From Artocarpus heterophyllus (lineage: Eukaryota; Streptophyta; Magnoliopsida; Rosales; Moraceae): a DNA stretch of 64,000 nt. The notes under the pieces are model-generated. The model worked only from the letters and a program-made list of their open reading frames with translations. It ran no database searches and was not told where the DNA came from. The translations under genes and the position numbers were made by a program. Below are positions 3,630 to 63,167 of the stretch, piece by piece (positions within the stretch are counted from its first letter, which is position 1; every line of letters begins with the position of its first letter). The DNA lies in assembly GCA_025403435.1 (NCBI GenBank), contig CM046333.1, forward strand, positions 32,075,521 to 32,139,520. Direction: 5' to 3'.

Positions 3630-4178
3630 TGATATCTTACAAGATAGGATGATAAGATCACATTTCTATGAGTATTAATTTAGGAACTTGGGTCAAGAGT
3701 ACTCACTATTTAGTATGGGATATCAAATATTACTCAAATCCTCATTTATGATTTGTTCACATTCAGGTCCCCCATTAGAGAATTAATGGAACTTATTAAC
3801 GAAGAAATAATTAGAGAGATTATGCAGAAATCTATAAACCTAGCTTTATTTATGCATGTTTTTTGTAGAGGATATTATCACATGATAAATGATTATATCA
3901 ATGGATGATAGTGGCGCAAATCGAAGTTGATAGTTATTATTAATTTAATTTTAAGATCATTAAATTATAAGTAATCATTGGAGCCTAGATTGTATATGTC
4001 CATTGAATCTCCTTGCTAACTCGATAATATTCTTTGATATGGACTAATGAAAATTTTCTTGGATTATTTATGCATGTAGGGACATAATTGTAATTTCACA
4101 CAACAGTCCACCTGGACAATATGTGACGCCATACACATGAACTCTATGAGTCCATGTGGCACCAATTCTATGGTTTAA
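3630..4178. other. Non-coding stretch, nothing recognised
   Basis: AT-rich sequence with no coding signal. It may be the U3 side of the LTR-like remnant that follows, but no terminal dinucleotide plus target duplication could be found to show it. Confidence 0.3.
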
Positions 4179-4630
4179 GGATTCAAATATATTGTATGAT
4201 CTTCATATAATCTTTTTGTTATCTAGGTGTAGATAAATATTTTTTTTTTCAAAAGTTGAAATAGATTCTAGGACAATTATTTATTTTATGAGATAATGTA
4301 TATATATTTGAGAAAATCATAGATGAAACTTAGTTTGAAAGTTAAAATAAATAATATCTTAATTTGAATTAAAATCAGATTTCAGAAAAATACTAAATGG
4401 ATATAGGATCAAATGTATTGTATGATCTTCATGTAATCTTTTTGTTATCTACATGCAGATAAATATTTTTTTTTCAAAAGTTGAAATAGATTCTAGGACA
4501 ATTATTTATTTTATGAGATAATATATATATTTGAGAAAATCATAGAAGATACTTAGTTTGAAAGTTAAAATAAATAATATCTCAGTTTGAACTAAAATCA
4601 GATTTCAGACAAATACTAGATGGATATAGG
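4179..4630. repeat. Direct tandem duplication, unit about 227 bp
   Basis: Two adjacent copies, about 4179-4405 and 4406-4630, share the string ATTGTATGATCTTCAT near their start and CAGATTTCAGA near their end, with a few substitutions and small indels between them. A third truncated start (ATATAGGATCA) follows copy 2. Confidence 0.85.
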
Positions 4631-4637
4631 ATCACAC

Positions 4638-6508: not shown

Positions 6509-7949
6509 GTTATTGTTAGACATGTATGCTCTAAGGAGTAAAAATGTAATACGTTTTTGGAGACATTTTTATCAATAAAGAATTTATTCATTTATATATA
6601 CCAAATATTGTCCTCTTTACGTTCATATTTGTTGAATGTATGATAAGCAAACAGTAGTCTGAGACTGTCAGTCTAAACCTTAAGAGTTGGGCATATGATG
6701 GGATGATTATGCGGTAGACACGACTCTCAAGGTGATGGTCTAAAATATATGATCCGCAATCGAGGGAATAAAGTTGGGCGCTTTATTCATGTAAAGATTG
6801 TTATGTTGTCTATATCCCTTTTGGGAGATGGTTTGTCTTGGCCATCGGAGTTGGACTCCGTGAATAGAAACATTGGCACGTTGTCATAGGTGACGATGTG
6901 TTGGATCGGGACATAAAGTGAATTGATTTGGATTAATAATTCTATCTTGGCAAATCGATTCACTTTAGACAATCATTTGTATTGTATCTTAATCCTGAGA
7001 TGAATAATGGGCCCGTTGTCTCGATTTGTGTCTTTTGATGTACCAATGGGTGACTCCCACATCTCTATAGTGGCATGCATGCCGGTACGTTGGAGGCATG
7101 ACTCTTGGTAGCGTAGACTTGTTATTCATAGATATGGAATCCATAGCTCCTCTTTAGGAGTAATGATATCCTCTTATATGCGTTGTCCTGTAATTGAAAA
7201 ACTGGAGCGCTCAACCATTTGGATACATAGGTATAACCGAATGGTATACTATCTTTGCATGGTAAGTTTTCTAATGGTGAGACAATGGAACGTAAGATAA
7301 AAATAATCGGGAAGGTAAGACAGAACTTGTCCTTAAGCTGATTATGGATGATCATATGGGGATGCGATACACTATGATATGTCATGGAGACTTAGCTACA
7401 CGAGCTTCGTAATTCTATAAAGTTCGAGAGTGCAGCTCCAAGCTTTTAGTGGAGTAGCGTTGGAGTTGATAATTGTGAAATGTATATCTAGGATATTGGG
7501 TTTCATAATTATCATGAGCTTGAACTTTATAGGTCCATTTTGGTCCCCTTTGCTAGCTCACAAAATCCTGTAACGACACGGCGTGCTTTTCCAATAATTG
7601 GTGACTTATGTCGAATTTATCAGATTGGTTTAAAATTTATAAGAATCAAATAATTCATGTCTGTTTATCGGTTGAATTAATTATGTAAGAAATTAGTTCA
7701 AGATGAACTTGTTGAATTATGGCATTCGGATAATTCTTGTCTGTTTATCGGTTGTTTTAATTTTGGACAATTAGAACAAGATAAACTTGTAGAATTATTG
7801 TGAATTGATTTATTTTCTTAGAGATTATCTTGATAAAGTTTGTTTTGATTAGATATCTTTTCTATTGGGCTATTTGAATCAAAACTGAGACTTTATCCTT
7901 TAGAATCTCGGGTGGAAAATAAAAGATTCGCGGAGATTTTTTTCTCGGC

Positions 7950-8030
7950 AGTTTGGCCTGCCTATCAGAAAGTTCGGCCTGCCGAACTGGCCAGTTCGGC
8001 CTGCCTATCACACAGTTCGGCATGCCGACC
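7950..8030. repeat. TTCGGCCTGCCGAA-type array (4 units) in solo LTR
   Basis: Four units spaced about 20-25 bp: TTTGGCCTGCC, TTCGGCCTGCCGAAC, TTCGGCCTGCC and TTCGGCATGCCGACC. The best unit has 6-bp arms TTCGGC/GCCGAA around a CT centre. The same motif occurs in LTRs of other families in this window. Confidence 0.9.
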
Positions 8031-8147
8031 GCGACAGTTAAGATTACGCGTTTTTCACGCGTATCTTATCAGATATTGATCCGAACTTGATTCTGTTTCG
8101 ATTTTTGAGACCTAATCTGATATGGACTGACCCCAAGGACCAATAGG

Positions 8148-9122: not shown

Positions 9123-12100
9123 TGTAATGCCCCTTATGAACGTCACAATAATAGTTACTTTTACCGTTAATAACATTATTTAAAGACATGGATATATTTT
9201 TTTCTTTAAAAACTGCTTACTAGATTTAACTTTTCCTCCTTGGTTAACCTGACGGAACACCAAAGGCATTCAGCTAACCAATCACCTACAAAAAATAGTT
9301 TACAAAAAACTAATATTTAATAAATACAAACTCACACATATAATACAAGCACTCTTAATATCTAATTAAACAACTAATTAAGACTTATTATGAAGAAATG
9401 TACTATATAGCGTATTCTTTAATGCATAACCTATGAAACTAAAAATCTAAAACACAAATTACATTTAATAAAATATAAGTTTAAAAAAACATATCACAAA
9501 TAGAACTGAGTCTCAAACAAATAAAAATACGAAACATAATATATTAAATTTTGTTTGAGTTTAAATTCCTATCATGACATGACTCCATTTTCAATCCAAA
9601 GCCCCTTGCACACATGCCCATCATTATCTTCCATCCTAGTCAACCTGTATTTACCCTTATCTGCAACATGACATAAACTAAGTAAGCATAAGCATAGTAA
9701 GTACACATTCCTATTTCATAGCATACAACATTTCATAAAAATCATTACATAACATCGTAATCATAATCACAGTAGTGCATGGGATATATGTTTATGTAGA
9801 ACATATCTTTTCATTTAAACTTCCATATTAAAATATTATTCATTTTATCTTTAGGGGCCCAAGCGTCGCACCATTAACATCGTAGGCGCGCCGTCATGAA
9901 GGAAGTAGGGTAGCTAGTCCCAAACCAAACATGACAAGTCTAAACCTTATGGGACATCATAAATATAAACATAGGATGCGCAACGCTTAATTAAGTGATA
10001 CATATACATATATATAAGCTTTATTTGCAAACTTGTCATTAACCATAAAAGCATAAACATCAAAATATCCTTAGGAAAATTCATCATAAAAGGTCTTACA
10101 ATAAGAATATTATATCAGAAACTTTTGATTATAGAACATTGCTTAAATTTTCATAAACTTTATTATGTTGCAGGTGAGAATGTACTTACTTGACTTGCTT
10201 GCTTACTAAACTTTAAATTGGGTGATCTAATTGTGGTTCTCGGTGTGCTCGCCTTTTGGAGCGTTCATGTCAACCATTCATATAATACATGAAATTAATA
10301 TTCATGTTCATAATATCATTTAATATCATGTTATATCATCATACATCATTCTTAATGAAACAAAGCATTTTTGAGTTACAAACATGCACTTAGAGTCAAG
10401 AAATATAAAGACAAAAAACTTGACCTTTAAGCACTTAGAAAAATTAATCTCAACTTATAAGCATGAATAAAGTGTAAAATTTCTTCCATAACATAGCTAA
10501 CATATAAAAATGTTACTCAAATTTTCCTCTTGAAAATATTAATGCAAAATACATTTTTTCAATTTTTAAAACTTTCAAGTAAATCTGTCAGTCACAAAAA
10601 CTGACCTTTAAGGATTCATAACCCTATGTCTTTCAAATCACATTCAATTAGAACATAAAAATTTGTAGGAATAAAATTAACTTATACATATAACACTTAG
10701 ATTTTTCTTTAGCCATAAAAATTTCATTTGATAATTTAAATAAATAGCATAATCAATACTACAAAATCTACCAGCAAAGCCCTGGTAGTGAGTAGTCTTA
10801 ATTAAAAATTATGGATTAAATTATTTATGATATAAAATAATTTATAAAAATTGCTACACATAATAGAGACATAAAATCATGACATATTAAAAATTCAGCT
10901 CCAAATAAATTCAGAATTATTCAAAACACATGTTTGAATTTAGGGTTAATATTGGCATCAGACATGTTAAACAGCGACAAGTTTCGTTCAAATATTTTTA
11001 TAAAATCAAATATGTATGATATGCTTATGAAATTTTTATGTGAATGTTTAACATATAAATAAATACTAAGAAAATAATAAATCATCTAAAATACATTTAA
11101 AAGTATAATTTATTATCTCATGAATTATATAGAGTATATCATGCAAGCATTTATAACCACCGAGTACTTGATGATTAACGAATGTTATCTTAAAATATAA
11201 TAAAGATATGAAGTTAAAAATTTATAAAACTGAGTTAACATATCAACAATAAATTATTATTTTTTATAGAACCAAAAGATACCTTTTGTCCCATAAAATA
11301 GACTCTACAATACACAAATACAAATCCGCCAATAAATAAAATTTCATGAGCAATGTTTGATTGAAAGCTTGTAACCTTAAAAATATATTGAATGAAAATT
11401 TATAAAAAATTCCAAACATTCGTAACATATATATACATATCATTTCCAAAAATCGCAGTAAAATAAAATCATTTGAATTTGAAACATTAACGGTAATCTT
11501 ACCAAATAAATGAAAATATTCTCATATCATATTCCAATGACAAAAATTATGTTAAATTTGTACCAAACTTACACAACCCTAAAAATCAAATATAACATGA
11601 ACATCACAAAATTAAACATTCTCAAAAATTAAAATCATCACGTTCATGTCATGTTATAAAAATTCAACAATTGAAACCAAAGTTGCATATTTTAATTTGA
11701 CAACATACCTCAAATTTCAACCTAATCATACCAAACAATCATAACTATAAATACATTTGATAACATAACCAAAACATTATACACGTAAATAAATTCATAC
11801 CCTGTGTTCTTGAATTCTTTGAGAGAGAAAATATTGAAGAAAACAAAATTCTAAACTAAAGATATGTGAGGTTTAGAGAAGAAAAAAAGAGCATTTAGAG
11901 GAATATGAGAAAAGATAGAGGCAAGAAAAATAGATAGGAATAATATGTATACTTAAAGCCACATATTTATAGGCATAAGTAAACTTAGTCCTAGTTTAAT
12001 TTGGTTTCTCTCTTTTTTTTTTTTTTTTTTTTTTTCTATTTCCTTCACGTCAACTCCAGTACATATGTGTATATATGTTATATGTACAACATTTTTTTTA

Positions 12101-17546: not shown

Positions 17547-17898
17547 CCATCTGTTGGGGAATTAGGCGACTCCTAATTTCAAGGATCGCAAGAATAAACA
17601 ATTGCAGAAAATAAATAGGAGAAAAGAAGAAAAAGAGACACCAAATTTTTATACAAGTTCGTCCAAAATTGAGACTACGTCCTGTTTCTACCGCTTGCAA
17701 ATTCCACTATGATGAAGGAGATTACATATTACAAGAGCAGTTTCTCACACACTCACAGATTGTGCTTACCAAAACTCTCTTCTATCTAACACCCTGTGGG
17801 AATTTTTCTCTCTCAAGGATGGAGCTCTCAAGAATTTTGCCTCTCACAAAATTATGCCTCTCACAATTTTCACACACATAACCCTAGCCATCTTGTGT

Positions 17899-17907
17899 CT
17901 ATTTATA
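17899..17907 (-). promoter_or_regulatory. TATA box of inverted LTR, pointing outward
   Basis: CTATTTATA here is the reverse complement of the TATAAATAG in the right LTR. Any transcription from it would leave the element leftward rather than enter gag-pol. Confidence 0.6.
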
Positions 17908-18018
17908 ACCAAAGGAGGAGAAAAATAGCAACTAATGGGAAAACCTAGTGATTTTCCATTTTTTTGGGACCTTTGAATTCGACTCTGACTCAAAAAACAT
18001 CACGAAACACAGTGCGTC

Positions 18019-18206
18019 AGCGCCGGGCCGCTGGAAACGAGCGCTGCGGCGCTCCCCTGCGGCGCCTAGGCGCTCTTCTCCTAGCGCCTAGGCGCCATAC
18101 ACTTTGAGCCTAGGCGTAATTCACCTGGCGCCTAGGCGCTCTGCACTTGGCGCCTAGGCGCCCTCATCCCAGCGCCGCGGCGCTCTTCTGCCAGTGCCGC
18201 GGCGCT
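18019..18206. repeat. GCGCCTAGGCGC / GCGCCGCGGCGC palindrome array (left LTR)
   Basis: Tandem GC-rich palindromes lie about 20-35 bp apart in an AT-rich LTR. Perfect GCGCCTAGGCGC units occur at about 18,062, 18,084, 18,128 and 18,150, with GCGCCGCGGCGC at about 18,172 and related forms at the ends. The array is the reverse complement of that at 22,389-22,583. Confidence 0.92.
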
Positions 18207-18257
18207 TGCTCCCTGCCTTCGAGAATGCATTTTTCTCCCTTTTTCTTCCTTTTGCTA

Positions 18258-18321
18258 TTTATTTTCTGCAATTGTTCGTTCTTGTGATCATTGGAATTAA
18301 GAGTCGCCTAATTCCCCAACA
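18258..18321 (+). repeat. 64-bp direct LTR (U5) end next to PBS
   Basis: Matches the last 64 bases of the right LTR in direct orientation (TTTATTTTCTGCAATTG ... CTAATTCCCCAACA) with a few substitutions. It is all that remains of a normally oriented 5' LTR. Confidence 0.9.
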
Positions 18322-18323
18322 AC

Positions 18324-18335
18324 TGGTATCAGAGC
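18324..18335 (+). promoter_or_regulatory. Primer-binding site (initiator Met-tRNA)
   Basis: TGGTATCAGAGC, the standard plant copia PBS, lies two bases after the CA of the U5 end. Confidence 0.9.
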
Positions 18336-18355
18336 GGAGGTTTTGATCAAGAACG

Positions 18356-21300
18356 ATGACTAGAGAAGAAGGTATGGCAGCCGGTATCACCAAATTTGAT
18401 GGTTCAGATTTTTCCTATTGGAGGATGCAAGTTGAAGACTATCTCTACAGCAGGAAACTGCACTTGCCCTTGGGTAATAAGCCCGAAGGCATGAAGGATG
18501 AGGAGTGGAATCTCCTTGATGGACAAGTGCTCGGTAACCTTGTCAAAGAACGTTGCTCACAATGTTGCGAAGGAGACTACTACAGCAGGGATGATGAAGG
18601 CTCTGTCAGAGATGTATGAGAAGCCCTCAGCCAATAACAAGGTACATCTCATGAAGAAGCTTTTTAATTTAAAGATGCCTAAAGGTGCCTCGGTGGTAGA
18701 GCACCTGAACAGTTTCAACACCGTCCTAAACCAATTGGTCTCGGTAGAGATTAAATTCGATGATGAGATCAATGCCCTAATCCTCTTGGCCTCGTTACCA
18801 AACAGTTGGGAACCCATGAGGGTGGCCATTACAAATTCTCTTGGGAGTCCAAAATTGAAGTTTGTTGATGTCATAAACTCTATTCTGAAGGAAGAAGTTC
18901 GCAGAAAGGACTCAGGTGAAGCCTCTTCGTCAAACTCGGCCCTTAATGTTGATAATAGGGGCAAGAAACTTGATAGGCAATCCAACAGGGATAATGGCAG
19001 GAGAGGCAAGTCGAGGAATGGGAGAAGCAAGTCTAGGAATGGTAGGACTATGGAGTGTTGGAACTGTGGGAAGACGGGCCACTTGAAAAAGAACTGCAGG
19101 GCTCCAAGGAAGAACGAAGACAAGACTAATGACACAGCTAACGCCACCACTGAAGAGCAACAAGATGCCTTAATCTTGTCTGTCGACAGTTCTTTTGATT
19201 CGTGGGTGATAGACTCAGGAGCATCATTCCACACCACAGCACACCGTCATGTCTTGGAAAATTATGTTGCTGGAAATCATGGTAAGGTTTATCTCGCTGA
19301 TGGAGAACCTCTGGATATTGTTGGCATTGGAGATGTCAGTTTAAAAATGCCTAATGGATCGGTGTGGAAGATTCATAAGGTGAGACATGTTCCTAAATTA
19401 ATGCGCAACTTGATTTCGGTGGGGCAACTGGATGATGAAGGACATAAAGTGACTTTCAATTGTGGAGGTTGGAAAGTCACTAAAGGAGTGATGGTAGTTG
19501 CTCGAGGACGCAAGGCTGAAACTCTCTACATGAACTCAAGTTGCAAAGATACCCTAGCAGTAGCTGATTTTGCTGTCAATACCGAGCTATGGCATTATAG
19601 GCTCGGTCACATGAGTGAGAAGGGTATGAAGGTACTTCACTGTAAAGGAAAACTGTTGGGACTGAAAACCGTTGATCACAGTTTGTGTGAAGCCTGCATC
19701 TTTGGTAAACAGAAGAGAGTCAGTTTCTCAAAGATGGGTAGAGAGCCTAAGTCCAGGAGATTGGAGCTAGTTCACACAGATGTGTGGGGACCTGCGCCGG
19801 TGACTTCCCCTGGTGGCGTAAACTACTATGTTACGTTTATAGATGACTCAAGCAGGAAGGTATGGGTTTACTTTCTGAAAAACAAATCTGATGTCTATGA
19901 TGCTTTCAAGAGATGGAAAGCCATGGTGGAGAACGAGACAGATTTGAAGGTGAAGTGCTTGCAGTCCGATAATGGGGGAGAGTACTTAGATGAAGATTTC
20001 AGGTGGTACTGTGCTGAGAATGGGATAAAGATGAGGAAGACCATTCTAGTAAAACCACAACAGAATGGGGTAGCTGAGAGGATGAACAAGACTTTAAACG
20101 AGCGTGCTAGGATCATGAGGTTGCATGCAGGGCTGCTAAAGATGTTTTGGGCTGAGGTAATTAACACAGCCGCTCATCTGATAAATAGAAGTCCATCCAC
20201 ACCACCGAAGTTCAAACTACCAGAAGAAGTATGGACCCATAAACAGGTTGATCTCTCTTACTTGAGAGTGTTTGGTTGTATTTCCTATACACACATTGAT
20301 TCTGCTGCTAGAAGTAAACTGGATGCCAAGTCAAAGAAGTGTTTTCTGGTTGGCTATAGCAGACTTGAGTTTGGTTATCGTCTCTGGGATGACCAAAGTC
20401 GGAAGATTATCAGGAGCAAGGATGTGATCTTCAACGAAGGTGTTCTGTACAAGGACAGAGACAGCACGGACTCCAGGGGTTCAGGTTCTGAAGACAAGAT
20501 GCCTGAGGTGATTCCATTGAAGGATCTTCCTAAAGTGGAGGTGCAAAATCCAGAGGTTGAAGACCATGAAGACACAGCTCCAGAAGGAAACCAGAGGACT
20601 CCTGCCACACCAGTCAGGAGGTCTAGCAGGACTATAAGACCGCCGCAGAGATACTCCCCATCTCTACATTACATCTTGTTAACCGACAGAGGTGACCCAG
20701 AGAGCTTTGATGAAGCCATGGAGGCTGGAGATTCGGTCAAGTGGGAGTTAGCCATGAGGGATGAGATGGATTCCTTAATGTCCAATCAGACATGGCAACT
20801 GGTAAAGTTATGACAGGGTAAAAATTCCTTGCACAATAAGTGGGTATACTGGATTAAAGATGAATCTGATGGCAGCAAATGGTATAAGGCAAGGTTGGTG
20901 GTAAAAGGCTTTCAGCAGAAAGAAGGCATCGACTTCAATGAGATTTTTTCTCCGATGGTGAAGCTAACCACGATTAGGACGGTACTTGCGCTAGTGGCAA
21001 ATGAGGACTTGTTCTTGGAACAGTTGGATGTGAAGACAGCTTTTCTCCATGGTGATTTGGAGGAGGAGATCTACATGAAGCAACCACAAGGATTCGAAGT
21101 ACCAGGTAAGGAGAACTTGGTGTGCAAACTTTAGAAGAGCTTGTATGGTCTAAAACAAGCTCCCAAGCAGTGGTATAAGAAGTTTGACGGGTTCATGTGC
21201 AGCAACAGTTTCTTGAGGTGTCAGTGAGATCATTGTTGTTATGTGAAGAATTTTGGTGATTCTTACATCATACTGTTGCTATATGTCGATGATATGCTAA

Positions 21301-22244
21301 TAGCGGGAGGTTACAAACAGGAAATTGACAAGCTAAAGAAGGAGCTGTCTAAGGAGTTTGCAATGAAGGATTTAGGTGCTGCAAAACAAATCCTTGGGAT
21401 GAGAATAACGAGGAACCGTAACAGTTTGAAACTGTCACAGGAAGAATATGTTGAAAAGGTGCTGAGCAGATTCAACATGGGTAATGCGAAGCCTGTGAAT
21501 ACTCCTTTAGCCAGTCACTTCAAGTTATCAAAGGAACAATCACCGACCACGGAGCAGGAACGAGACCACATGGCCAAGGTGCATTATGCTTTCGCTATAG
21601 GTAGTCTCATGTATGCCATGGTTTGTACTAGACCAGACATTGCACATGCAATGGGAGTTGTGAGTAGGTACATGAGCAATCCAGGAAAGCAGCATTGAGA
21701 GGCAATAAAGTGGATTCTCATATATATAAGAGGCACTGCGAGTTTAGCATTGTGTTTCAAGAAGTCAGACTTGGGACTACAGGGCTATGTTGATGCTGAT
21801 ATGGCTGGAGACATTGATGGCAGAAAAAGTACCACCGGTTATGTCTACACTTTGGGTGGCACTGCAATTAGTTGGGTCTCAAAGCTACAGAAGATAGTTG
21901 CACTCTCTACAACAGAAGCAGAGTATGTGGCAATGACAGAAGCGAGCAAGGAGATGATTTGGTTGCGGTCGTTTCTGGAAGAACTGGGTCACAAGCAGGA
22001 AAGGAGTGCATTACATAGTGACAGTCAGAGCGCCATTCATTTGGCAAAAAATCCCGCATTTCATGCTAGGACGAAGCATATACAATTGCGGTATCACTTC
22101 ATCAGGTCGGCTTTGGAAGATGGAGTGTTGAAGCTTGAGAAGATTCTTGGGAGCCAGAATCCGGCAGATATGCTCACCAAGACTGTTCCAATTGAGAAAC
22201 TGAAGTTGTGCGCAACTTCAGTTGGACTTCTCCATGAAGCATGA
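18356..22244 (+). pseudogene. copia gag-pol polyprotein, frameshift plus four stops
   Basis: Gag starts at ATG 18,356 (MTREEGMAAGITKFDGSDF). A frameshift near 18,535 moves reading to the frame used by the remaining 3.7 kb. In that frame, counting from 18,498, there is a CCHC zinc knuckle (CWNCGKTGHLKKNC, residues 187-200), the protease DSG (about 239-241), the pre-integrase block (ELWHYRLGHMSEKGM), and integrase with D in HTDVWGP, D in QSDNGGEY and E in GVAERMN. RT with YVDD follows (about 21,285), then RNase H (VDADMAG to about 22,200). In-frame stops are at 20,811 (TGA), 21,132 (TAG), 21,225 (TGA) and 21,696 (TGA). Block order PR-IN-RT-RH defines Ty1/copia, and the sequence looks Tnt1/Tork-like. 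With its LTR promoter pointing outward, expression from its own 5' LTR is not expected. Confidence 0.9.
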
Positions 22245-22290
22245 GAAGTCGTTGCCGCTGCAGTGGGAGACATGGTGATTGATTAGTCTC

Positions 22291-22302
22291 CAAGTGGGAG
22301 AT
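22291..22302 (+). promoter_or_regulatory. Polypurine tract
   Basis: CAAGTGGGAGAT lies directly before the TGTTGCAG start of the right LTR, as expected for the plus-strand primer of plant copia elements. Confidence 0.8.
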
Positions 22303-22388
22303 TGTTGCAGATGTGGAGCCAAATCAAGTCGACAATCTAGCAAAAGGAAGAAAAAGGGAGAAAAACGCGTCCTCGAAGGCAGGGAGCA

Positions 22389-22583
22389 AGCGCCGCGGCT
22401 CTGGCAGAAGAGTGCCGCGGCGCTGGGATGAGGGCGCCTAGGCGCCAAGTGCAGAGCGCCTAGGCACCAGGTGAATTACGCCTAGGCTCAAAGTATATGG
22501 CGCCTAGGCGCCAGGAGAAGAGCCCCTAGGCACCACAGGGGAGCACTGCAGCGCTCGTTTCGAGCACCGCGGTGTTGACGCGC
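22389..22583. repeat. GCGCCTAGGCGC / GCGCCGCGGCGC palindrome array (right LTR)
   Basis: About nine units, four of them intact or nearly so. It lies about 100-300 bp upstream of the TATA box, in the enhancer position of U3. Several units have CpG lost to TG or CA (for example GCGCCTAGGCACC) compared with the left copy. Confidence 0.9.
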
Positions 22584-22685
22584 TGTGTTCCGTGATGTTT
22601 TTTGAGTCAGAGTCGAATTCAAAGGTCCCAAAAACGGGAAATCACTAGGGTTTCCCATTAGTTGCTATTTTTCTCCTCCTTTGGT

Positions 22686-22694
22686 TATAAATAG
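22686..22694 (+). promoter_or_regulatory. TATA box of right LTR
   Basis: TATAAATAG, downstream of the palindrome array. Confidence 0.7.
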
Positions 22695-23075
22695 ACACAA
22701 GATGGCTAGGGTTGTGTGTGTGAAAATTGTGAGAGGCATAATTTTGTGAGAGGCAAAATTCTTGAGAGCTCCATCCATGAAAGAGAAAAATTCCCACAGG
22801 GTGTTAGGTAGAAGAGAGCTTTGGTAAGCACAATCTGTGAGTGTGTGAGAAACTGCTCTTGTAATCTATAATCTCCTTCATCATAGTGGAATCTGCAAGC
22901 GGCAGAAACAGGACGTAGTCTCAATTTTGGACGAACCTGTATAAAAATTTGGTGTCTCTTTTTCTTCTTTTCTCCTATTTATTTTCTACAATTGTTCATT
23001 CTTGCGATCCTTGGAATTAGGAGTCGCCTAATTCCCCAACACCATCAACGTAGCATGTTCAAGCGAAATACATAC

Positions 23076-23715: not shown

Positions 23716-23720
23716 ATCAA

Positions 23721-23977
23721 TAAACAAAGAAGAAAGGAATTCTGAATGAAAGAATTATGTGTATTGATTCTATTGTTCAATGCCTTACACGGGTGTCCTC
23801 CATATTACTGCCCAAAAAAAAGGGTAAAAAATCTCTCTACAATAGCTCGCTAATAACTAACTTTCCATTTTACATTATTTCCAAATCACATTAATTTATA
23901 GCTAACCAAATATATTTACAACTAATCAAATCTCCTAATCTTCGGTTGAATCACAACAAGATCTCTATTTTCCAACA
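23721..23977 (-). repeat. 3' LTR of nested copia
   Basis: Shares GGAATT(C/T)TGAATGAAAGAATT, CAATGCCTTACA(C/T)GGGTGTCC and CTCCTAATCTTCG with the LTR at 30,322-30,587. The minus-strand start is TGTTGGAAAATAG, preceded by a purine-rich tract (GAAAAAGAG). Confidence 0.85.
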
Positions 23978-24906
23978 CTCTTTTTCAAGCTAGTTTGAAG
24001 ATATCTTCCATAACCAGCTTGCCAATTAAATTATTGAACTGCTTCTTTGGTAATCCTTCGGTAAGAACATCCACAATTCGTTCTACTGGAGGAATGTGCG
24101 GCATGCAAATCAGTCCAATTTCTAGCTTTTCCTTGATAAAATGCTTGTCACCTTCCACATGCTTTGTTTTGTCCTGGAGGACAAGACTATGAGCAATCGA
24201 GATCACTGCCTTTTTTATCACAATAGATCATCATAGGTATAGAATTAGAGACTTTCAAATTCTCTAATAATAATTTAATCCAAAAAAATCCATAAATTCC
24301 ATGGGCAACTACTCTAAACTCTGCTTCAGCACTGCTCCTAGTAACAACATTTTGTTTCTTGCTCCAACAAGTAACAAGGTTACCTCCAACAAATGCACAG
24401 TAGCCAAAAGTTGATCGTCTATCAAAAACACTTCCTACCCAATCTACATCAGTGTATTCTTTAACTTGTAGATGGCCACATTTCTTGAATATCAAACCCT
24501 TTCCAGGAGTTCCTTTTAGGTATCTTAGAATCCTATAGACTCCATCGAAGTGTTTTGGTCCAGGTGAATGCATAAACTAGCTAACCTTGCTAACAACAAA
24601 CGTTATGTCAGGACATGTATAAGACAAGTAATTAGTCTTCCAACTAGCCTTTGATATTGCTCTCTGTTTTGAATTTCCTTGGTCTTGGTAGGTTTTAGCT
24701 TCAAGTTGGCTACAATTGGAGTTTCTACTGGTTTACACCCAAGTAGGCCCCTTAAGTAAATCAAGAACATATTTTTGTTGGTTAACAAATATACCTTCCT
24801 TGGACCTAGCAAATTCCATTCCAAGGAAGTATTTCAATATGCCCAAGTCTTTGATCTTGAAAACAGATGCCAGCTTCTCTTTTAGTCTCTCCAATTCTTT
24901 AATTAT
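23978..24906 (-). pseudogene. copia RT (C-terminal half) and RNase H remnant
   Basis: The minus strand gives KELERLKEKLASVFKIKDLG, LKYFLGMEFARSKEGIF and QQKYVLDLL (RT palm and thumb part), then LGCKPVETPIVANLKLKP, then RNase H blocks YTDVDWVGSVFDRRSTFGYC and SSAEAEFRVVAHG, running out near 24,000. Several frameshifts occur. It continues directly from the YVDD-containing piece at 26,827-27,075 once the solo LTR is removed. It converts RNA to cDNA in the family; this copy cannot. Confidence 0.8.
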
Positions 24907-30319: not shown

Positions 30320-30321
30320 TA

Positions 30322-30587
30322 TAAACTTAGAAGAAAGGAATTTTGAATGAAAGAATTCTATATATTGACTCTGTTGTTCAATGCCTTACATGGGTGTCCT
30401 TTTATAGAAGAAATTACAACCCAAAAATAAGGAAAAAAATCTCTCTACAATAATTGCCTAATAATTACCTTTCCTATTTTACATTATTGACCAAATGACA
30501 CTAATTTACTGCTAACCAAATATATTTATAGCTAATTAAATCTCCTAATCTTCGTCTATATCACAACCAAATCCCTATTTTCCAACA
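30322..30587 (-). repeat. 5' LTR of nested copia
   Basis: The minus strand starts TGTTGGAAAATAG and ends CTAAGTTTA before the PBS. A TATA-like TATAAAAGG (minus) is at about 30,396-30,404. Confidence 0.85.
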
Positions 30588-30594
30588 CAATCAA

Positions 30595-31699: not shown

Positions 31700-31866
31700 G
31701 TTTCATTATCATCAAATTTTAGCCTCCTTAATCACCTTCATCTTGTAATCTTCATGAGTTTAGTGATTTTCTTCTCCTTTACGCGTAGTTTTTTTCCCGT
31801 CTTAGGTTTTCATGTAAATCTTTATCTGTTTTTGTTCTTTATTTCTATCACATTATTCTCGTAACA
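31700..31866 (+). repeat. 5' LTR, matching right part only
   Basis: 167 bp starting GTTTCATTATCATCAAATT and ending TTCTCGTAACA. It aligns without gaps in length to 36,168-36,334. Sequence left of it does not match the 3' LTR. Confidence 0.8.
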
Positions 31867-31868
31867 AG

Positions 31869-31880
31869 TGGTATCAGAGT
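31869..31880 (+). promoter_or_regulatory. Primer-binding site
   Basis: TGGTATCAGAGT, one base from the standard copia PBS, two bases after the LTR end. Confidence 0.85.
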
Positions 31881-31898
31881 GTGGCTTTAATCTCAGCG

Positions 31899-34800
31899 AT
31901 GGCAGCAATGAAGTATGACATTTCGCTTTTGGATCACGACACCAAGTCTAGTCTTTGGCAGGTTAAGATTCTGTTTGTGTTGGCGTAGATGGATTTGGAA
32001 GAAGCGCTGTTAGGGTTTGAGAAGATGCCCTCATCGTGGTCGACAGAGGAGAAACAAGTGAGGATCGGAAGGCTTTGACCCAGATTTAACTTCATCTGTC
32101 GAATAGAATTTTGCAGAATGTTTTGAAGGAGAAGACTACTGTTGCATTATGGTTGAAGTTGGAGCAGTGGTGTATAACGAAAAGTCTCACTAGTAAGCTG
32201 CATCTAAAGCAGCGTTTGCATCTACACAAGATGGCTGAAGGTGCGTCTCTTGAAGAATACTTAACCATTTTTAAGGAAATTGTCTCTGATTTAGAGGCCA
32301 TGGAGGTTAAGTAGAGGAAGAAGACTTAAGGTTAATCATGTAGTGTTGGTTGTCCTTATCACATGCAATGTTTAGAGATACAATTTTGTATGGTCAGGAT
32401 ACGCTTACCTTGGACAAAGTTTATGATGCCTTGCTATCTAAAGAAAAGATGAAGCAGCTTGTGAGTGAACCTGCTACTCAAGGAGAAGGCCTTGTTGTTC
32501 CTGGTAGGACTCAGGAGAGGAGTTCTGGTTCTAGTGTTGATCGAAGTCCAAGCATAAGGACAAAGTCTACAACTACTACAAGAAAAAGGGGCACATTAAG
32601 ACCGATTGCTATAAACTACAAAACAAGAATAAGAGAACGGCTGATCAAAAGGGAAAGCAAACAAATAAAATCGGTGAGGCTAGTGTTGTGGAAGAAGTTT
32701 CTAAAGGGGAGTTCCTAGTGATTCCTGATGGTAAATCCAAACCCTGTAAGGTTCTTGACTCTACATGTACGTTTCATATATGTCCCAACCAAGATTAGTT
32801 TTTAACATATGAAATAGTTTCTAAAGGCTCTATTTTGATGGGTAATAACACTCCATGCAAGATTGTTGGTATTGGAACTGTCAAGATCAAGATGTATGAT
32901 GGAGTAGTAAGGACACTAGGTGATGTGATGCATGTCCCTGATCTAAAGAGGAATTTAATTTCCTTGAGTGCTCTAGATTCAAAAGGGTATAGGTACTTCA
33001 GTGAAGGTGGAGTTTTGAAGGTTAGCAAACATGCTCTTGTTATGATGAAAGGGCAGACGAAGACTGATGGTTTGTGTGTTTTGCAGGGTATTATAGTTAT
33101 AGGAGATGCAGCTATTACTACATCTACTATGTCTGATAATGATCTCACTAAGTTATGGCATATGCGACTGGGGCATATGAGTGAGCTTGGGATGGTAGAG
33201 TTGAGTAAAAGAGGATTGCTTGATGGATAGTGCGTAGGCAAGATGGAGTTTTGTGAGCACTAAACAAAGGAGAGTCAGATTTGGCAAAGGCATTCACAAC
33301 ACAAAAGACATTTCAGAGTATGTTCATTTTGACCTTTGAGGACCGTCTACTATTCCTTCTCATCATGGTGCTAGTTACATGCTTACGATTATAGATGACT
33401 TTGTTAGAAAGGTATGGACATTCTTTTTGAAGCAAAAGAATGATGTTTTTGTTGTGTTCAAAGATTAGAAGACCATGGTAGAAAAGCAGATGGCTTGAAG
33501 TTTTGTTCAGATGAATTCAATGTCTTTTGTAAATCAGAAGGAATTACGAGGGATTTAACAGTCCGACGTACTTTGCAGCAAAATGGTGTGGTAGAGTGGA
33601 TGAATAGAACATTGATAGAGAAGGTACGTTGCATACGCTCCAATACTGGGCTGCCTAAGTCATTTTGGCCTAAAGCCGCTTCTACATCTTGCTACTTGCT
33701 GAATCACTCTCCTTCTATTGCTACTAACAAGAAGACTCCATAGGAGGTATGGTTGGGTAAACCTACAGATTACTCTAATTTAAGAATTTTTTGTTGTCCT
33801 GCCTATGCTCATGTTGATAATGGTAAATTGGAGCCTAGATCTATGAAGTGTGTATTTCTTGGTTATAAGCTTGGAGTTAAAGCTATAAGTTATGGTGCCT
33901 GGACACCAAGAAGGTGATTATTAGTAGAGATGTTGTGTTTGATGAGACTATTATGTTACGTGGGACATCTACTACAAGATCTAGTAATGTTGATCAGGAG
34001 AGATCTAGTAGACAGGTGGAGTTTTAGATTGAGACAGGTACATTATACGATTCAACTCCCAATCAAGTTCAGAGAGTCATGGAGATGTTGTTTCCCCATC
34101 ACCACCACCGACGGCACTACAGTATTCTATCGCCAAGGATAGACCTAGGAGAGATGTTAGGCTTCCAAAGAGGTTTGCTAATGCCGACTTGGTGGCTTAT
34201 GCTTTATCAGTGGCATAAGGTTTTAATTGCAGTGAAAAACATTCTACTTATTCAGAGGCGGTTAGCTGTGATGACTTTGGGAGATGGATGATTGCTATGC
34301 AGGGGGAAATGGAATCTCTTCATAAGAATGGCACTTGGAATTTGTTGAAGTTGCCTAAAGGTAAGAAAGCTATTCACTGCAAGTGGGTGTTTAAGAGAAA
34401 AGATGGTACACCAAGAGTTGAGGAAGCCAAATATAAGGCTAGACTAGTTACAAAAGGTTATAGTCAGGTTCCAGTTGTAGACTTCATGGATGTGTTCTCT
34501 CCAGTTGTGAAGCATAGCTCGATTTGAGCTTTGCTTAATATTATGGCCATGCATGATCTTGAGCTTAAACAGTTAGATGTGAAGACCGCATTCTTGCATG
34601 GGGAGCTTGAGGAGGATATCTATATGCAGCAACCAGAGTGCTTAGTTTCAAGTAAGAAGGACCATGTGTGTTTGTTGAAAAAGTCTCTCCATGGCCTGAA
34701 ACATTCTCCTAGGCAATGGTATAAGAGGTTCGACTCATCTATGACCTCTCATGAGTTTAAGAGGAGTGACTATGATAGTTGTGTCTACATAAAGAAGAAC

Positions 34801-35793
34801 CGTGATGGGTCTTATGTCTATTTGCTCTTATATGTTGATGATATGTTGATAGCTTCTAGGGATAAGGAAGAAATTAGAAAGGTGAAGGCTCAACTTAGTA
34901 AGGAGTTTGAGATGAAATACTTGGGGGCCACAAAGAAAATTATTGGCATGGAAATTTCAAGAGATAGGAAGGCAGGCAAGTTGTATTTGAGTCAGAAAAG
35001 GTACATTGAGAAAGTTTTGCAAAGATTCAGTATGCATAGTGCCAAACCTGTGAGTACTCCATTAGCTACACATTTTAGACTTTCTTCCACTTTGTCTCCA
35101 CAATCAGATGATAAGATTGAGTATATGTCTCGAGTTCTATATTCTAATGCAGTGGGATCCCTCATGTATGCTATGGTATGTTCTCGTCCAGACTTATCAT
35201 ATGCAGTTAGTACAGTTAGTAGATACTTGGCTAATCCTGGTAAGGAACATTGGAAAGCAGTTCAGTGGATATTCAGGTACTTGTGTGGTACTATTGTTAT
35301 TTGTTTGCAGTTTGGGAGGACTAGAGATGGAGTTATTGGATATGTTAATTTTGGTTTTGCTGGAGATTTTGATAAGAGGAAATCACTTATAGGGTATGTG
35401 TTTACCGTTGGTGGCTATGCTATTAGCTGGAAGGCTACTTTATAGACTACAGTAGCTTTGTCTAGTACTAAGGTAGAATATATAGTGATCATTGAAGCTT
35501 ATAAAGAAGCTATTTGGCTGAAGGGCCTATTTGATGAACTCAATAAAGACTTGCAGATTACTACAGTGTTTTGTGATAGTCAGAGTGCTATTTTTCTCAC
35601 TAAAGATCAGATGTTTCATGAGAGAACTAAGTACATTGATATTTGTTATCACTTTGTTCGTGAGGTTATTGCTCGTGGTGATATTGTTGTGAGCAAGACT
35701 AATACCCATGATAATCCTACTGATATGATGACTAAGTCATTATCTACATCCAAGTTTAAGCATTACTTGGACTTGGTTGGTGTTCGTTGTTGA
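31899..35793 (+). pseudogene. Tnt1-like copia gag-pol, many breaks
   Basis: Gag starts MAAMKYDISLLDHDTKSSLW (31,899) and contains LTSKLHLKQRLHLHKMAEG (32,190-32,250). After several frame changes, a protease-region block follows (GIGTVKIKMYDGVVRTLGDV, 32,870). Next are the pre-integrase block (KLWHMRLGHMSELGM) and integrase parts ending QQNGVVEWMN (the catalytic E is in this block but the R before M is W). RT begins GKKAIHCKWVFKRK and contains LLLYVDDMLIAS (34,830). RNase H runs to 35,793 ([17 protein letters not shown]). Stops occur at 34,525 (TGA) and 35,443 (TAG), with others upstream. The protease DSG itself lies in a damaged stretch near 32,760. Confidence 0.85.
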
Positions 35794-35885
35794 GGTTTGC
35801 CCTTAAGGGGTGTTTTTGTGGAAGAGGTGAAGATAGCTTGTTGAAGATTTGTTCCTTGAAGTGGAATTCGCATCAAGGTGGAGAT

Positions 35886-36334
35886 TATTAGAGTTTGATG
35901 ACCCGAATTCAGTTTGGCCTAACCCGAAAAGCTCACAGTGCGACAATTGCGGTGAAAAACAAATGTAGAATTTTTCATGAAATCTGTGGTGGTAGTGGAG
36001 GGATTGAGTCATTAGGCTTGATCCTATAGCGCACCATTGATCTCACTTGGGGTGTGAGGGTGGAGCCCCACGGTACAGACCTTTGTATTTTTAGGCCGTT
36101 TACTTTATGTTTTTTGGGCCTATAGAGTTTTGTTTATACCTATATATATATGATGTATTGCATTAGGGTTTCATTATCATCGAATTTTAGCCTCCTTAAT
36201 CGCCTCCATCTTGTAATCTTCATGAGTTTAGTGATTTTCTTCTCCTCTGCCCGTGGTTTTTTTCCCGTCTTGGATTTTAATGTAAATCTCTCTGTATTTT
36301 TATTCTTTATTTCTATTGCATTATTTTCGTAACA
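35886..36334 (+). repeat. 3' LTR of Tnt1-like copia (449 bp)
   Basis: Follows the purine-rich AAGGTGGAGAT and starts TATTAGAGTTTGATG (TG of the usual start reads TA). It ends TTTTCGTAACA. A TATA-like run (CTATATATATATG) is near 36,140-36,152. Confidence 0.75.
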
Positions 36335-38350: not shown

Positions 38351-40402
38351 ACGGCTGACAAGTAATCAGCAGAAATCTCTCCAAAATTATGGCTGAGTTA
38401 ATTACGTTAATTGGATGATTTATTGTGATTAATTGGCATAATAATGGAATAATTTTGTCAGTTAAGGAAATTAAAAGATTGACTTTGCATTGATTTGTTT
38501 GATTTTAAATGGTTTTCATTTTAAGAGGGCAAAACATGGTAAGTAGGGAGTGATTGTTTGACTTTCCTTCTTTCTCTCCTTTTCTCCACTCCAATTAGCA
38601 CCATTTGAGTCAAAAAATTATGACTTAATGGAGGGAATTGAATTCCCATCAATTATGCTCATTATGTTAAAATTTTTAACGTTCCTTTTTCATTATTTTT
38701 CTCATTCTCACGTTTCTCTCTCTCAAACTTCTGAGACGTTTGTTTTCTTTCATTCTTCTTCTCTTCTCCATGAATCCTATCTCCTTCTCTCTCAAAAATT
38801 CCCTGCAAGAATATTGAAAGAAAAAGTCATATTTAGTTGGTTGAATTCAAGGATTTTAAGAAGAAATTTTCAAGGTAAGATCTCAATTTTTTCGGTAACT
38901 CTGAAAAGAATCTCTCCTCCTCAATCCGTCTACAATATCTTCCTCTAGGTATTGTATTTTGCTCTGAGTTTTTAATATGATGTTCATGTGTGTATTGGGT
39001 GTTGTTTTTCCAAGTTTCGTGTCATTTTAATATTTCTATGCTAAAATATGAATTTTCTATCCTCTACCCTTCACAGTAAAATATTACTGTTTAACATTGA
39101 TGCATGAAAAATGTAATGTTTATTCAAGAGGTAAATGAATGATGTTTTTCATGAAAGTTGTCAAGAATGTACATGTATAATGTATGATGAATGTATTTTA
39201 TGTTATGAAATGTTTTATATGTTTAAAGGATTTTGATTGATGATGAAATATTTTTATGATGTTGAAATATATGATAATAAGATGTTTGTATGAATTTTAA
39301 AAAGTATGTATTTTTAAATTATTAGAAAACGTTTTCAAAAGATTTTCATGTTTGTAATGTATGAGATGTTTTGATGATAATATTTAAGGAAGCATGTTAT
39401 GAATAATGTTTATATGTGATGATAATTTTATGTAGTCACAATGATGATTATGTATTATGTTTGTAATATGAGATGAATGTATATATGAATGTTATATGAA
39501 TGAATGTTTTATGATAAGTATTAATTTTATTGTATTTTAAATGGAATAATGGCATGAACACACAAAAGAACGAGCACTTCGAGACCGCGGCGTCGTCACC
39601 AAATCACATTAAGGTTAAGTAAGCTAGCATTAAGGTAAGTATATTCTCACCTACAACATGACACATTTTACAAGGTTTGATTATATATTCACAATGTTAT
39701 TCATGATGATTTTATGGTTTTTTTTCCTTAAAGGATTTCTTATGAAAGATTTTCATGATTTAAAAGTTATGTATGTATGATGATGACATGTTTTAAAGTA
39801 TGAAAATTATGTATATATGTATCACCTAATAAATGTTGCACACCAATGTTATAATGTCATGTTTGGTTTGGGATTAACTACCCTTCTCCTCTCATGACGG
39901 CGCACCTACGATGATGTTCATGGTGCAACACTTAGGCCCTTAAGATAAAATAGAATAAGTTTTAAAATTGTCAATGTAATGAAAGATATGTTTCTATGAA
40001 ATTGTGCTTAAGGCACTTTTATGATATGATGACAATGATGATGATGATGTTTATGTAATATTTTAAATTGTGAGAATTATTTGTACTTACTAATTATTAG
40101 CTTAATCATGTTTTATGTCATGTTGCAGATAAGGGTAAGAAAATCATGGAATAGGTGGAGGACACGGGAAGGCGTGTGAGCACAAAGCATGATAAATTGT
40201 AACCGAAAGAACGCCAAAAAGAATAATTTTATGTTTTAAATCAAGTTTTATATTTGAACATAATTTTTATGTTAAGTTTTAAGAATATTTGAACTATGTT
40301 TTATATTTTATTTCATTATTTTAAGTATTATGAACTTCTACGTTTTCTTTATGAAAAGTTGCTTTTGTTTTAAAAATTAAGTTTTCTTTAGGATTTTGGC
40401 TC

Positions 40403-40598
40403 GATTGGCCTGCCGAACATCCTTGGTCGGCCTGCCGATGTCCAGAAGTTCGGCCTGCCAATCACGTTTTCGGCCTGCCGGACAATGATGAGATTTTAAG
40501 TCAGTTTTGCATAGCCTCTGCCGGCCTGCCGGTTGAGAGAACTCCGGCCTGCCGATCATGTTCGGCCTACCGAAGTCCCAAGTTCGGCCTGCCGAACT
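40403..40598 (+). repeat. TTCGGCCTGCCGAA array (forward orientation)
   Basis: About eight units, including TTGGCCTGCCGAAC, TCGGCCTGCCGATG, TTCGGCCTGCCAAT, TTCGGCCTGCCGGAC, CCGGCCTGCCGGTT, CCGGCCTGCCGATC and TTCGGCCTGCCGAACT. Confidence 0.92.
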
Positions 40599-45762: not shown

Positions 45763-47944
45763 TGTCACACCCTAGAGTACGAGATGTGACGTGACGGTTT
45801 AATTAAGTTAATTAAGTAAAAATTTGGTTAAAACATAAGTTTAAGAATTTAAAATTAATTATGAAAATGTGATAATTTAAAACCTTTTTAAACAAATGTT
45901 TGTAATCATTTAATAAATAAGAATAACAAAATAAATAATAGGAAATAATAAAATAATAAATAAAGAAAGTATAAAAAATGCGAGTTGGGTCCCACTGGCC
46001 CACATTTTGTGCACACACATAGTACTGACAACATTAAATTGCATCCACAGTCCAAAATGGAGAGAGAAAGCTAAAGTAATACATGCCTTGATTTTTATAA
46101 TTCAAATAACCTACTTGGCTTTTCTACTACTCGTATGTCCCATCTGTGGACTCTACTTCAATCCTAAGCTGAAATCCACCTAAAGGGAGTAAAAGTTTTA
46201 AAACAAATAAAATGTGAGCGAAAGGCTTAGTAGGACTTTATTTTTAGAAACATTTAATTCTAAATGTAAACTTTCATTATCCAAGAAATTATTTAGAAAA
46301 TAGACTTGAATAGATGAATAAATAAAATACAACAAAAATTAATCTTACCAAAACTACTTGTTGGTCGACCAAAAAGAATATCATTTTCTTTTCTTGGGCA
46401 AACCATGTATATATCACCATCGTGGTGGCCCAACTGGGTTTCAGGACCTGCCCTCAAGATCGCACGTTACACGACCCGATCTCTGATATGGCATCATACC
46501 CTTCTATATATATTTTTTATAATTATTGAAACAAATCTCTTTTTATCAAGTATTTTCATTTACATTAATTATGAGGTTTATTATGAAAATCATCTCAATT
46601 TATTGTTTATAAAAAAACAGCCAATGAAAAACCCCTTTTCAATCATTCATTGAAAACATTTTGATAAAATCCTTTTGAGGCCGAAATCTTTTAAAAACCA
46701 GGATACAAAGAAAAAGGGTAGAAGCCTTACCTCAATACTTGTGCCGATGTCCCACACCGTAATCCTGATTCGCTACATGTCAGCTCCGCGAAACTACGAA
46801 CAACCTTAAATGTATAACAACTAGGTCTATCAGTATCTAGCTTAAGATACCTACGTTGCTACATTATTTCTTAATGTTCTAGTGTGCCATTTATACTTAT
46901 AAAATCATTTTATAAAGTTAGAATTTCAATCGGGGTTCAAAATAGTAAAAACGGATGAAAAATAACAAAATTTTACCATGCCTGATTGGCCTGCCGGTCG
47001 GAAGACCAAGTCCAGTTGGCCGAACTTTTACAGGTTTGGCCTGTCGGACATATGAATCTGACCTACTGAATTGGAAAATTTCAGAATTTTCTAGGCACAG
47101 GTTTTCGGCCTCCTGAGCCTAAATCCTCATTTCAACCTGTTTTTCTCAGTTTTCAGGCATAAAAAACATCTATAGATGATAGAAAAACATCATAAAGCAC
47201 TTTTGAGCTAAATTAAACAAGGTTTACACAAAAATTTTGAAAAATTCCAAAAATAGAGAAAATTAGAGAAAAATAAAAAATCTAGATTCGAATTCGTTTT
47301 TCTTCAAACAAAGCTTAGATTCTAGTTGTTTTAAGTTTCTCTAACTTAGATCAAAGATTTTCTAAGCTTAAATGAACTTAGATTTCAAAACATTAAGAAA
47401 ATTAAAAAGTTTTGAAAAAGTTTGAAATTTAAAAACTAACCTTAAATTTAAGCTTTGATTAGAAGTTGTAATCATCTAAACGTGTTCCCTAGCTTCCAAT
47501 CCACTAAAAACCAAAGCTTCGGCTTGATTTGAAATCAAAATTTTGAGAGGAGAAGAGAGAGAAAGAGAGGCGAGTGAGAGAGAGAGAGAGAGAGACGCAC
47601 GAGAGAGAGTGAGAGAAAGCTGAGTCAGTGAGGGAGAGTGGAAGAAAGGGAAAGGCAGAGATGAATAAATAAGGGAGGGAAAGGTAGTTTGCCGCATGAA
47701 AACCATGTGCAGCAGCACACCGATTTCAAATGGGACATATTCGGTATTTGACAAATTGTTTTGTTTCAAAATTCAAAATAACAATTAAAAATAATTTGAA
47801 GTAATTAAAAATATTTGAAATAATAAAAATGACATTAATTTAAAAATTTCACATAATTATCAAATTAAGTTTAAAACATTCATTATGGCACACTAATCCA
47901 CCATTTTTATACTAATATCACTTAATTAATTTTGGAGAGTTACA
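45763..47944 (-). repeat. 3' LTR of old chromovirus (2182 bp)
   Basis: The plus strand starts TGTCACACCC and ends GAGAGTTACA. It contains the eroded palindrome array (46,981-47,075) and a (GA)n tract at about 47,560-47,605. It matches 52,670-54,896 almost collinearly. Confidence 0.9.
46981..47075. repeat. Eroded TTCGGCCTGCCGAA array
   Basis: Four or five degenerate units (TTGGCCTGCCGGTC, TTGGCCGAAC, TTTGGCCTGTCGGAC, CTGACCTACTGAAT). Most CpG sites have become TG or CA. It is shorter than the array in the partner LTR at 53,879-54,040. Confidence 0.75.
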
Positions 47945-47962
47945 ACTCTCCACCCCTAAAAG
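47945..47962 (-). promoter_or_regulatory. Polypurine tract of old chromovirus
   Basis: The minus strand reads CTTTTAGGGGTGGAGAGT directly before the TGTAAC start of the 3' LTR. The same sequence lies at 58,422 in the young element. Confidence 0.8.
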
Positions 47963-47992
47963 AAATTTCACCCTCAAAATTAACAAATCGGT

Positions 47993-52564: not shown

Positions 52565-52653
52565 TCTTTCACTTCTGAAAACAAAATTTGAACTGTCAGT
52601 GGTGTTTCATTGTCGTATCTATGTGTGAATAATTCTCAAAGTTCATAACCTTG

Positions 52654-52665
52654 AGCTCTGATACC
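52654..52665 (-). promoter_or_regulatory. Primer-binding site of old chromovirus
   Basis: The minus strand reads TGGTATCAGAGC four bases inside the 5' LTR, the initiator Met-tRNA type used by plant chromoviruses. Confidence 0.88.
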
Positions 52666-52669
52666 ATTC

Positions 52670-58421: not shown

Positions 58422-58439
58422 GCTCTCCACCCCTAAAAG
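58422..58439 (-). promoter_or_regulatory. Polypurine tract of young chromovirus
   Basis: The minus strand reads CTTTTAGGGGTGGAGAGC directly before the 3' LTR start. Confidence 0.85.
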
Positions 58440-58469
58440 AAATTTCGTCCTCGAAATTTACAACTCATC

Positions 58470-63062: not shown

Positions 63063-63152
63063 TCTCTCACTTCTGAAAACAAAATTTGGACTGTCAGAGG
63101 TATTTCATTGTCAAACCTATGTGTGCACAATTCCCAAGGTTCATAACCTTGA

Positions 63153-63164
63153 GCTCTGATACCA
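63153..63164 (-). promoter_or_regulatory. Primer-binding site of young chromovirus
   Basis: The minus strand reads TGGTATCAGAGC, three bases inside the 5' LTR. The gag ATG follows 90 bp later. Confidence 0.9.
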
Positions 63165-63167
63165 TTC

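Follow-up and report, generated by a model that had tools for sequence, protein, structure and literature searches.

A Copia insertion with an inverted left LTR and two U5 termini inside one target-site duplication

A single Tnt1-like Copia insertion, at positions 17552–23041 of the window (the whole stretch of 64,000 nucleotides analyzed here), carries its left LTR in inverted orientation, and both outer ends of the resulting composite are U5 termini. One perfect 5-bp duplication of CCATC encloses the whole structure, which fits a single integration event. The explanation we favor, with a probability of roughly 0.6, is that both ends of the cDNA were U5 termini by the time it was integrated. 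If true, the locus shows in a natural setting that the Copia integrase of a plant can complete both sides of an insertion from a pair of U5 ends, and that an inverted LTR is now and then built during reverse transcription. It also leads to a searchable prediction: that there are inverted-LTR insertions inside one target-site duplication that go unreported by finders requiring direct LTRs.

The geometry, the termini, the duplication, the microhomology, and the divergence of the LTR copies can all be read directly from this locus, and the features are collected in Table 1. The inverted LTR is 706 nt long, ends on the outside at the U5 terminus, and is without the first 35 nt of U3. It aligns with the 3' LTR at 94.5% BLAST identity over 706 alignment columns. 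A first-pass annotation of this DNA had described the left LTR as an inverted copy of LTR positions 34–739 or thereabouts; the inversion stands, and the alignment moves its start to position 36. The direct U5 of 64 bp that had been placed before the primer-binding site was found as described, and it becomes 67 bp if the CTA common to both sides of the inner junction is counted in. With the two LTRs not in direct orientation, this is an abnormal Copia copy and structurally not a standard member of the group.

Table 1. Features of the composite insertion (LTR positions refer to the 739-bp 3' LTR)
Feature	Position in window	Strand	Basis
Left target-site duplication, CCATC	17547–17551	none	sequence
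Inverted LTR, reverse complement of LTR 36–739	17552–18257	-	sequence comparison, BLAST
TATA-like motif of inverted LTR (LTR 384), directed leftward out of the element	17900–17907	-	motif, letters checked
Inner junction, 3-nt microhomology CTA	18255–18257	none	inverted U3 end (LTR 36–38) and direct U5 (LTR 673–675)
Direct 5' LTR remnant, last 64 bp of U5 (LTR 676–739)	18258–18321	+	sequence comparison
Primer-binding-site-like TGGTATCAGAGC, 2 nt beyond U5	18324–18335	+	sequence
Longest open frame	18498–20813	+	Pfam, scanned in two pieces
Open piece with RVT_2 reverse transcriptase	21243–21698	+	Pfam
Polypurine-tract-like AAGTGGGAGA, directly before 3' LTR	22292–22301	+	sequence
3' LTR, 739 bp, TGTTG...CAACA, normal orientation	22303–23041	+	sequence comparison
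U3 array, ~22-bp palindrome-bearing units (GCGCCTAGGCGC type)	22434–22535	+	repeat scan; in stretch with strong hairpins
Right target-site duplication, CCATC	23042–23046	none	sequence

A comparison of the window with itself recovered the inverted LTR pair, as the earlier annotation had anticipated. It gave 14 repeat pairs (at least 100 bp, E <= 1e-10, some overlapping), 12 of them direct, and the element's LTRs make up one of the two inverted pairs. The other inverted pair lies outside the Copia element at 9651–9936 and 39855–40138 (~285 bp, 75% identity, 30 kb apart). Beyond this element, sequence comparison found no further copy of the LTR in the window.

The outer ends of the composite are like those of a Copia integration product. 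It starts with TG at 17552–17553 and finishes with CA at 23040–23041, and its two termini have 27 identical bases, the last difference falling at position 712 of the 739 in the LTR. The same U5 terminus at both ends and the perfect CCATC on both sides had been claimed at the outset and are borne out here; given the base composition, the right-hand 5-mer would be CCATC by chance with a probability of 0.0006. The outer boundary of the inverted LTR coincides with the U5 terminus to the base and includes no letters of the primer-binding-site spacer, in agreement with 3' processing of a genuine U5 end. The two bases that lie between U5 and the primer-binding site are missing from both outer ends of the composite, which is what trimming of both to CA by integrase would leave. 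The inner end of the inverted segment is ragged, at LTR position 36, in line with a jump, and there the CTA reported earlier does fit both sides, giving 3 nt in common with the direct U5.

Several simple routes to this arrangement fail on the geometry. Plain inversion of a left LTR is rejected, with the last 64 bp of U5 occurring both inverted and direct. A second, nested insertion of an inverted LTR would carry its own target-site duplication and would need to land exactly on the terminus of the first element. Autointegration, in which an element end attacks its own LTR, is likewise rejected, the inner junction joining LTR 36 to LTR 673 with no element terminus.

In normal reverse transcription, after transfer of the plus-strand strong-stop DNA, the minus strand is extended through U5, R, and U3 of what will be the left LTR. 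Among retroviruses, aberrant cDNAs that carry inverted LTRs are known. For the element described here, we infer the timing of the switch (during reverse transcription), the strand that jumped, and the action of integrase. The minus strand, while being completed into the 5' LTR, would copy about 67 nt of U5, and its 3' end (...TAG) would then find a 3-nt match at LTR position 36 of a minus-strand template and re-pair there. This template could be the strand's own 5' arm or that of another, co-packaged copy. The jumped strand would copy this arm to the template's 5' end, which would be set by the tRNA primer at the U5 terminus, thereby accounting for an exact outer boundary and a ragged inner one. 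A mirror version would end in an identical molecule: a nascent minus strand at LTR 36 would jump to the U5 of another minus strand and act as the plus-strand primer. Integrase would trim both U5 ends to CA and insert them in the normal concerted manner, duplicating 5 bp of the target.

The element itself encodes an integrase core domain (PF00665), which we count in favor of a two-U5 cDNA as the substrate. Passages of work on HIV-1 integrase in vitro report that the enzyme favors U5/U5 pairs over U3/U5 and U3/U3 pairs and that most of the sequenced products have a 5-bp target-site duplication (PMC8742673). The HIV-1 preference makes integration of a two-U5 molecule plausible, and by analogy the Copia integrase may act on U5 pairs as the HIV-1 enzyme does. 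For insertions of plant LTR elements with an intact outer target-site duplication, template switching has likewise been put forward (PMC1950507).

A strand-transfer error during reverse transcription, yielding a cDNA with two U5 ends, was the explanation offered in the first-pass annotation, and it remains the most economical reading, but the CTA microhomology suits end joining between cDNAs equally well. The chance of an overlap of at least 3 nt at the inner junction is about 0.06, and the overlap would count as weak evidence for a strand jump. In the end-joining alternative, two cDNAs are joined before integration: one has lost all but 67 bp of U5 from its left LTR, the U5-bearing LTR 36–739 end of another is attached to it, and integrase uses both U5 ends. 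Microhomology-mediated end joining would give the same product, with an outer target-site duplication, two U5 termini, and a ragged 3-nt junction. Passages of a 2025 review (PMC12786077) describe alt-EJ as a participant in the second-strand transfer of mdg4 and IAP elements and in their circle formation, and state that plants have the pathway. However, the joining route requires two truncated molecules, including a 704-nt LTR piece, against one jump for the strand switch, and we consider it rather unlikely.

The two ends of the LTR are inverted copies of each other over 5 nt, TGTTG/CAACA, and the first five bases after CCATC would therefore be the same in a normal element. With these 5 nt common to the U3 and U5 termini, a two-jump template switch after a normal insertion would yield the same left junction. 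A replication fork in the 5' LTR would jump at TGTTG to the opposite strand at a U5 terminus, copy 704 nt backwards, and return at CTA, with an inverted LTR and 67 bp of direct sequence as the outcome and no error of reverse transcription involved. Template switches of this two-jump type occur in eukaryotic genomes, and here the normal and observed left ends have TGTTG in common, with 3 nt at the second junction. The earlier statement that inversion cannot explain the structure therefore holds for a plain cut and flip but not for a two-jump switch using this 5-nt and 3-nt microhomology. Such a switch nevertheless takes two jumps, and one of these must land precisely at the element's terminus; the chance of at least 5 nt of microhomology there is about 0.007, though microhomology would guide the jump. 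It has a low probability in our estimate and is ranked as less likely than a two-U5 cDNA formed before integration.

The timing of these alternatives can be approached through the divergence of the copies. Between the inverted and 3' LTRs there are 37 substitutions at 704 sites (29 transitions and 8 transversions; K2P 0.055) and one 2-nt indel. Unpolarized, 8 of the 37 differences resemble CpG loss in the 3' LTR, 4 resemble CpG loss in the inverted LTR, and the other 25 are of other kinds. At substitution rates of 1.3e-8 or 7e-9 per site per year, this divergence corresponds to about 2 or 4 million years.

The 64-bp overlap of the three U5 copies offers a further comparison. It holds 7 variable sites, of which one is private to the 3' LTR, two to the inverted LTR, and four to the direct U5; the sites are unpolarized and rest on 64 bp and on the three copies at this locus. 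Formation of the inverted LTR before integration predicts a star pattern, which is not rejected (the probability of 4 or more of 7 is 0.17). Under later copying from the element's own 5' LTR, the probability of having so few sites private to the 3' LTR falls to 0.04 at 40% of the element's age and to 0.02 at 50%. With that template, these seven sites would favor a jump before about 40% of the element's age had passed and disfavor later times. If the 3' LTR served as the template instead, the 1:2:4 split has its best likelihood, 0.29, at about 40–50% of the element's age, compared with 0.13 at insertion, and jump times up to about 80% of that age are allowed. The split of private sites would thus fit a mid-life switch from the 3' LTR slightly better, by about twofold on seven sites, than a cDNA with two U5 ends formed before integration.

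LTRs are places where assemblies can fail, and the segment at 17552–18257 could in principle be an artifact of assembly or of haplotype merging. The inverted LTR copies neither of the other segments, however, with 37 of 704 sites differing from the 3' LTR and four private differences in the direct U5, and its left edge matches an exact terminus and an exact target-site duplication. The 37 differences suggest that the inverted LTR is old and unlikely to be an artifact, and we regard this explanation as very improbable.

Apart from the left LTR, the cis-acting sites of the element are ordinary. The 3' LTR, the polypurine-tract-like run, and the primer-binding-site-like sequence stand in their normal positions, and TGGTATCAGAGC is presumably a match to initiator-Met tRNA. 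The left LTR is a different matter. The TATA-like motif on its minus strand agrees with the proposal, made from the first inspection, that the 5' promoter points out of the element, and the sequence fits a putative left promoter directed outward. Because there is no direct U3 or R at the left, the copy would have no sense promoter of the usual type.

A minisatellite of ~22-bp units with the palindrome GCGCCTAGGCGC is present in the U3 portion of both LTRs, at 18061–18188 and 22434–22535. The predicted DNA fold of 22303–22602 reaches -68.5 kcal/mol compared with -52.5 kcal/mol in shuffled sequences (z = -4.0), and none of 200 shuffles folded equally well. In this fold model, U3 hairpins might stall the polymerase or keep strands together, a possible aid to the switch.

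The coding content places the element with Copia. The longest open frame encodes gag (Retrotran_gag_2 and a zinc knuckle), Pol_BBD, gag_pre-integrs, the integrase core, and an SH3-like domain. The integrase core (rve, PF00665), in the piece at 19539–20810, precedes RVT_2, at 21243–21695, in the order found in Copia (Ty1-type) elements, and the 5-bp target-site duplication and the TG...CA termini are likewise of Copia (Ty1-type) form. To our knowledge, DIRS and other tyrosine-recombinase elements make no target-site duplication, and a DIRS-like identity was rejected on the presence of both that duplication and the integrase core. The coding region is broken overall, with shorter open pieces beyond the longest frame, and the first 390 nt past U5 contain a stop in each of the three forward frames. 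A protein search with the gag piece (347 residues) gave 2133 candidates, of which 926 passed the threshold of E 0.001, and the best of the 120 listed matches, at 64% identity, was "Pol polyprotein from transposon TNT 1-94" of Euphorbia lathyris. The other named matches noted among those listed were from plants, mostly eudicots, which suggests that the host is probably a eudicot.

Viral contigs, which are not expected to contain plant DNA, held no exact copy of the junction 25-mer and none of the U5-terminus 21-mer; a search of viral contigs with a 173-residue piece (19080–19600) gave one stretch that fit a pattern and none that was confirmed. An Rfam scan of the window at gathering thresholds gave no matches.

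The window is rich in other repeats. Direct repeats of 99.4% identity at 56267–57100 and 63168–64000 flank minus-strand frames for Ty3-type gag, protease, RT, and RNase H, and 56267–64000 looks like a young Gypsy-type element running to the window end. Direct repeats of 2.2 kb and 88% identity at 45763–47944 and 52670–54896 match the 56–64-kb element in parts at ~69–75%, so that 45763–54896 is apparently an older, related Gypsy-type element. A second Copia-like element, judged by its repeats and frame, occupies 31700–36334, with 167-bp direct repeats (89%) as short, normally oriented LTRs around an RVT_2 frame at 34531–35445. The ~260-bp direct repeats at 23720–23978 and 30321–30588 (82%, 6.6 kb apart) are a possible old LTR pair. 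At 4170–4634 a 223-bp unit is tandemly duplicated at ~92–93% identity. Four short tandem arrays (7949–8039, 40545–40595, 53964–54019, and 57407–57575) have a CCTGCC core in common, which stands as CGGCCTGCC in all of them except 53964–54019.

Within this single locus the two LTRs of the composite make up a long inverted repeat, with ~700-bp arms and a 4.1-kb loop, and for this reason read-through transcripts could possibly give LTR dsRNA. A broader proposal would be that U5–U5 cDNAs are a regular by-product of reverse transcription in Copia and are efficiently integrated, that inverted-LTR insertions are perhaps a recurrent class overlooked by annotators who require direct LTRs, and that read-through LTR dsRNA could silence the whole family. 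We put this forward as a long shot.

In the open-licence literature, covered by title or start of abstract and with most subscription journals outside its scope, no account was found of a plant LTR element inserted with one LTR inverted inside a single target-site duplication. The portions considered of PMC2151762, PMC11302176, PMC10085805, PMC5618025, PMC3536649, and PMC10236774 hold no case of such a form.

Among known systems, the closest in content are the Tnt1-94-like Copia elements (Pseudoviridae type), with which this insertion has in common the Copia domain order from gag to RVT_2, the 5-bp target-site duplication, the TG...CA termini, and the primer-binding-site-like and polypurine-tract-like sites. 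Unlike them, it has a left LTR that is inverted and short by 35 nt, 64–67 bp of direct U5, and neither U3 nor R in sense orientation ahead of gag. Inverted LTR arrangements are described in parts of the animal literature: the HERV-K(HML-2) provirus c7_C is a gag-pro-pol fragment described as flanked by an LTR of opposite orientation (PMC2525661), and the locust Gypsy-25 has an inverted LTR pair (PMC8786324). These elements are animal and not Copia, and the likeness is one of description, with no target-site duplication, end type, or mechanism entering the comparison. DIRS-1, as presented in part of PMC5633606, has inverted terminal LTRs and an internal piece complementary to the ends, but it uses a tyrosine recombinase, whereas the element here has an integrase core and a target-site duplication.

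With the HIV-1 integrase reactions, in the passages considered of PMC8742673, the likeness lies in the U5 pair and the mostly normal target-site duplication. Those donors, in contrast, were short linear DNAs that each had a U5 end and a U3 end, and the U5 pairs came from two molecules, whereas the insertion here is natural and apparently came from one. Finally, Sabot and Schulman (2007) described three-LTR, two-core complexes of Angela, Squiq, and Opie in wheat relatives, rice, and maize (PMC1950507). Of the features of such template-switching complexes, the outer target-site duplication is present here, and two core regions and an internal full LTR are not. Theirs have three LTRs and two core regions, whereas this element has one core, an inverted LTR, and two U5 ends; in both cases, a single 5-bp target-site duplication surrounds an abnormal insertion that is argued to reflect an error before integration.
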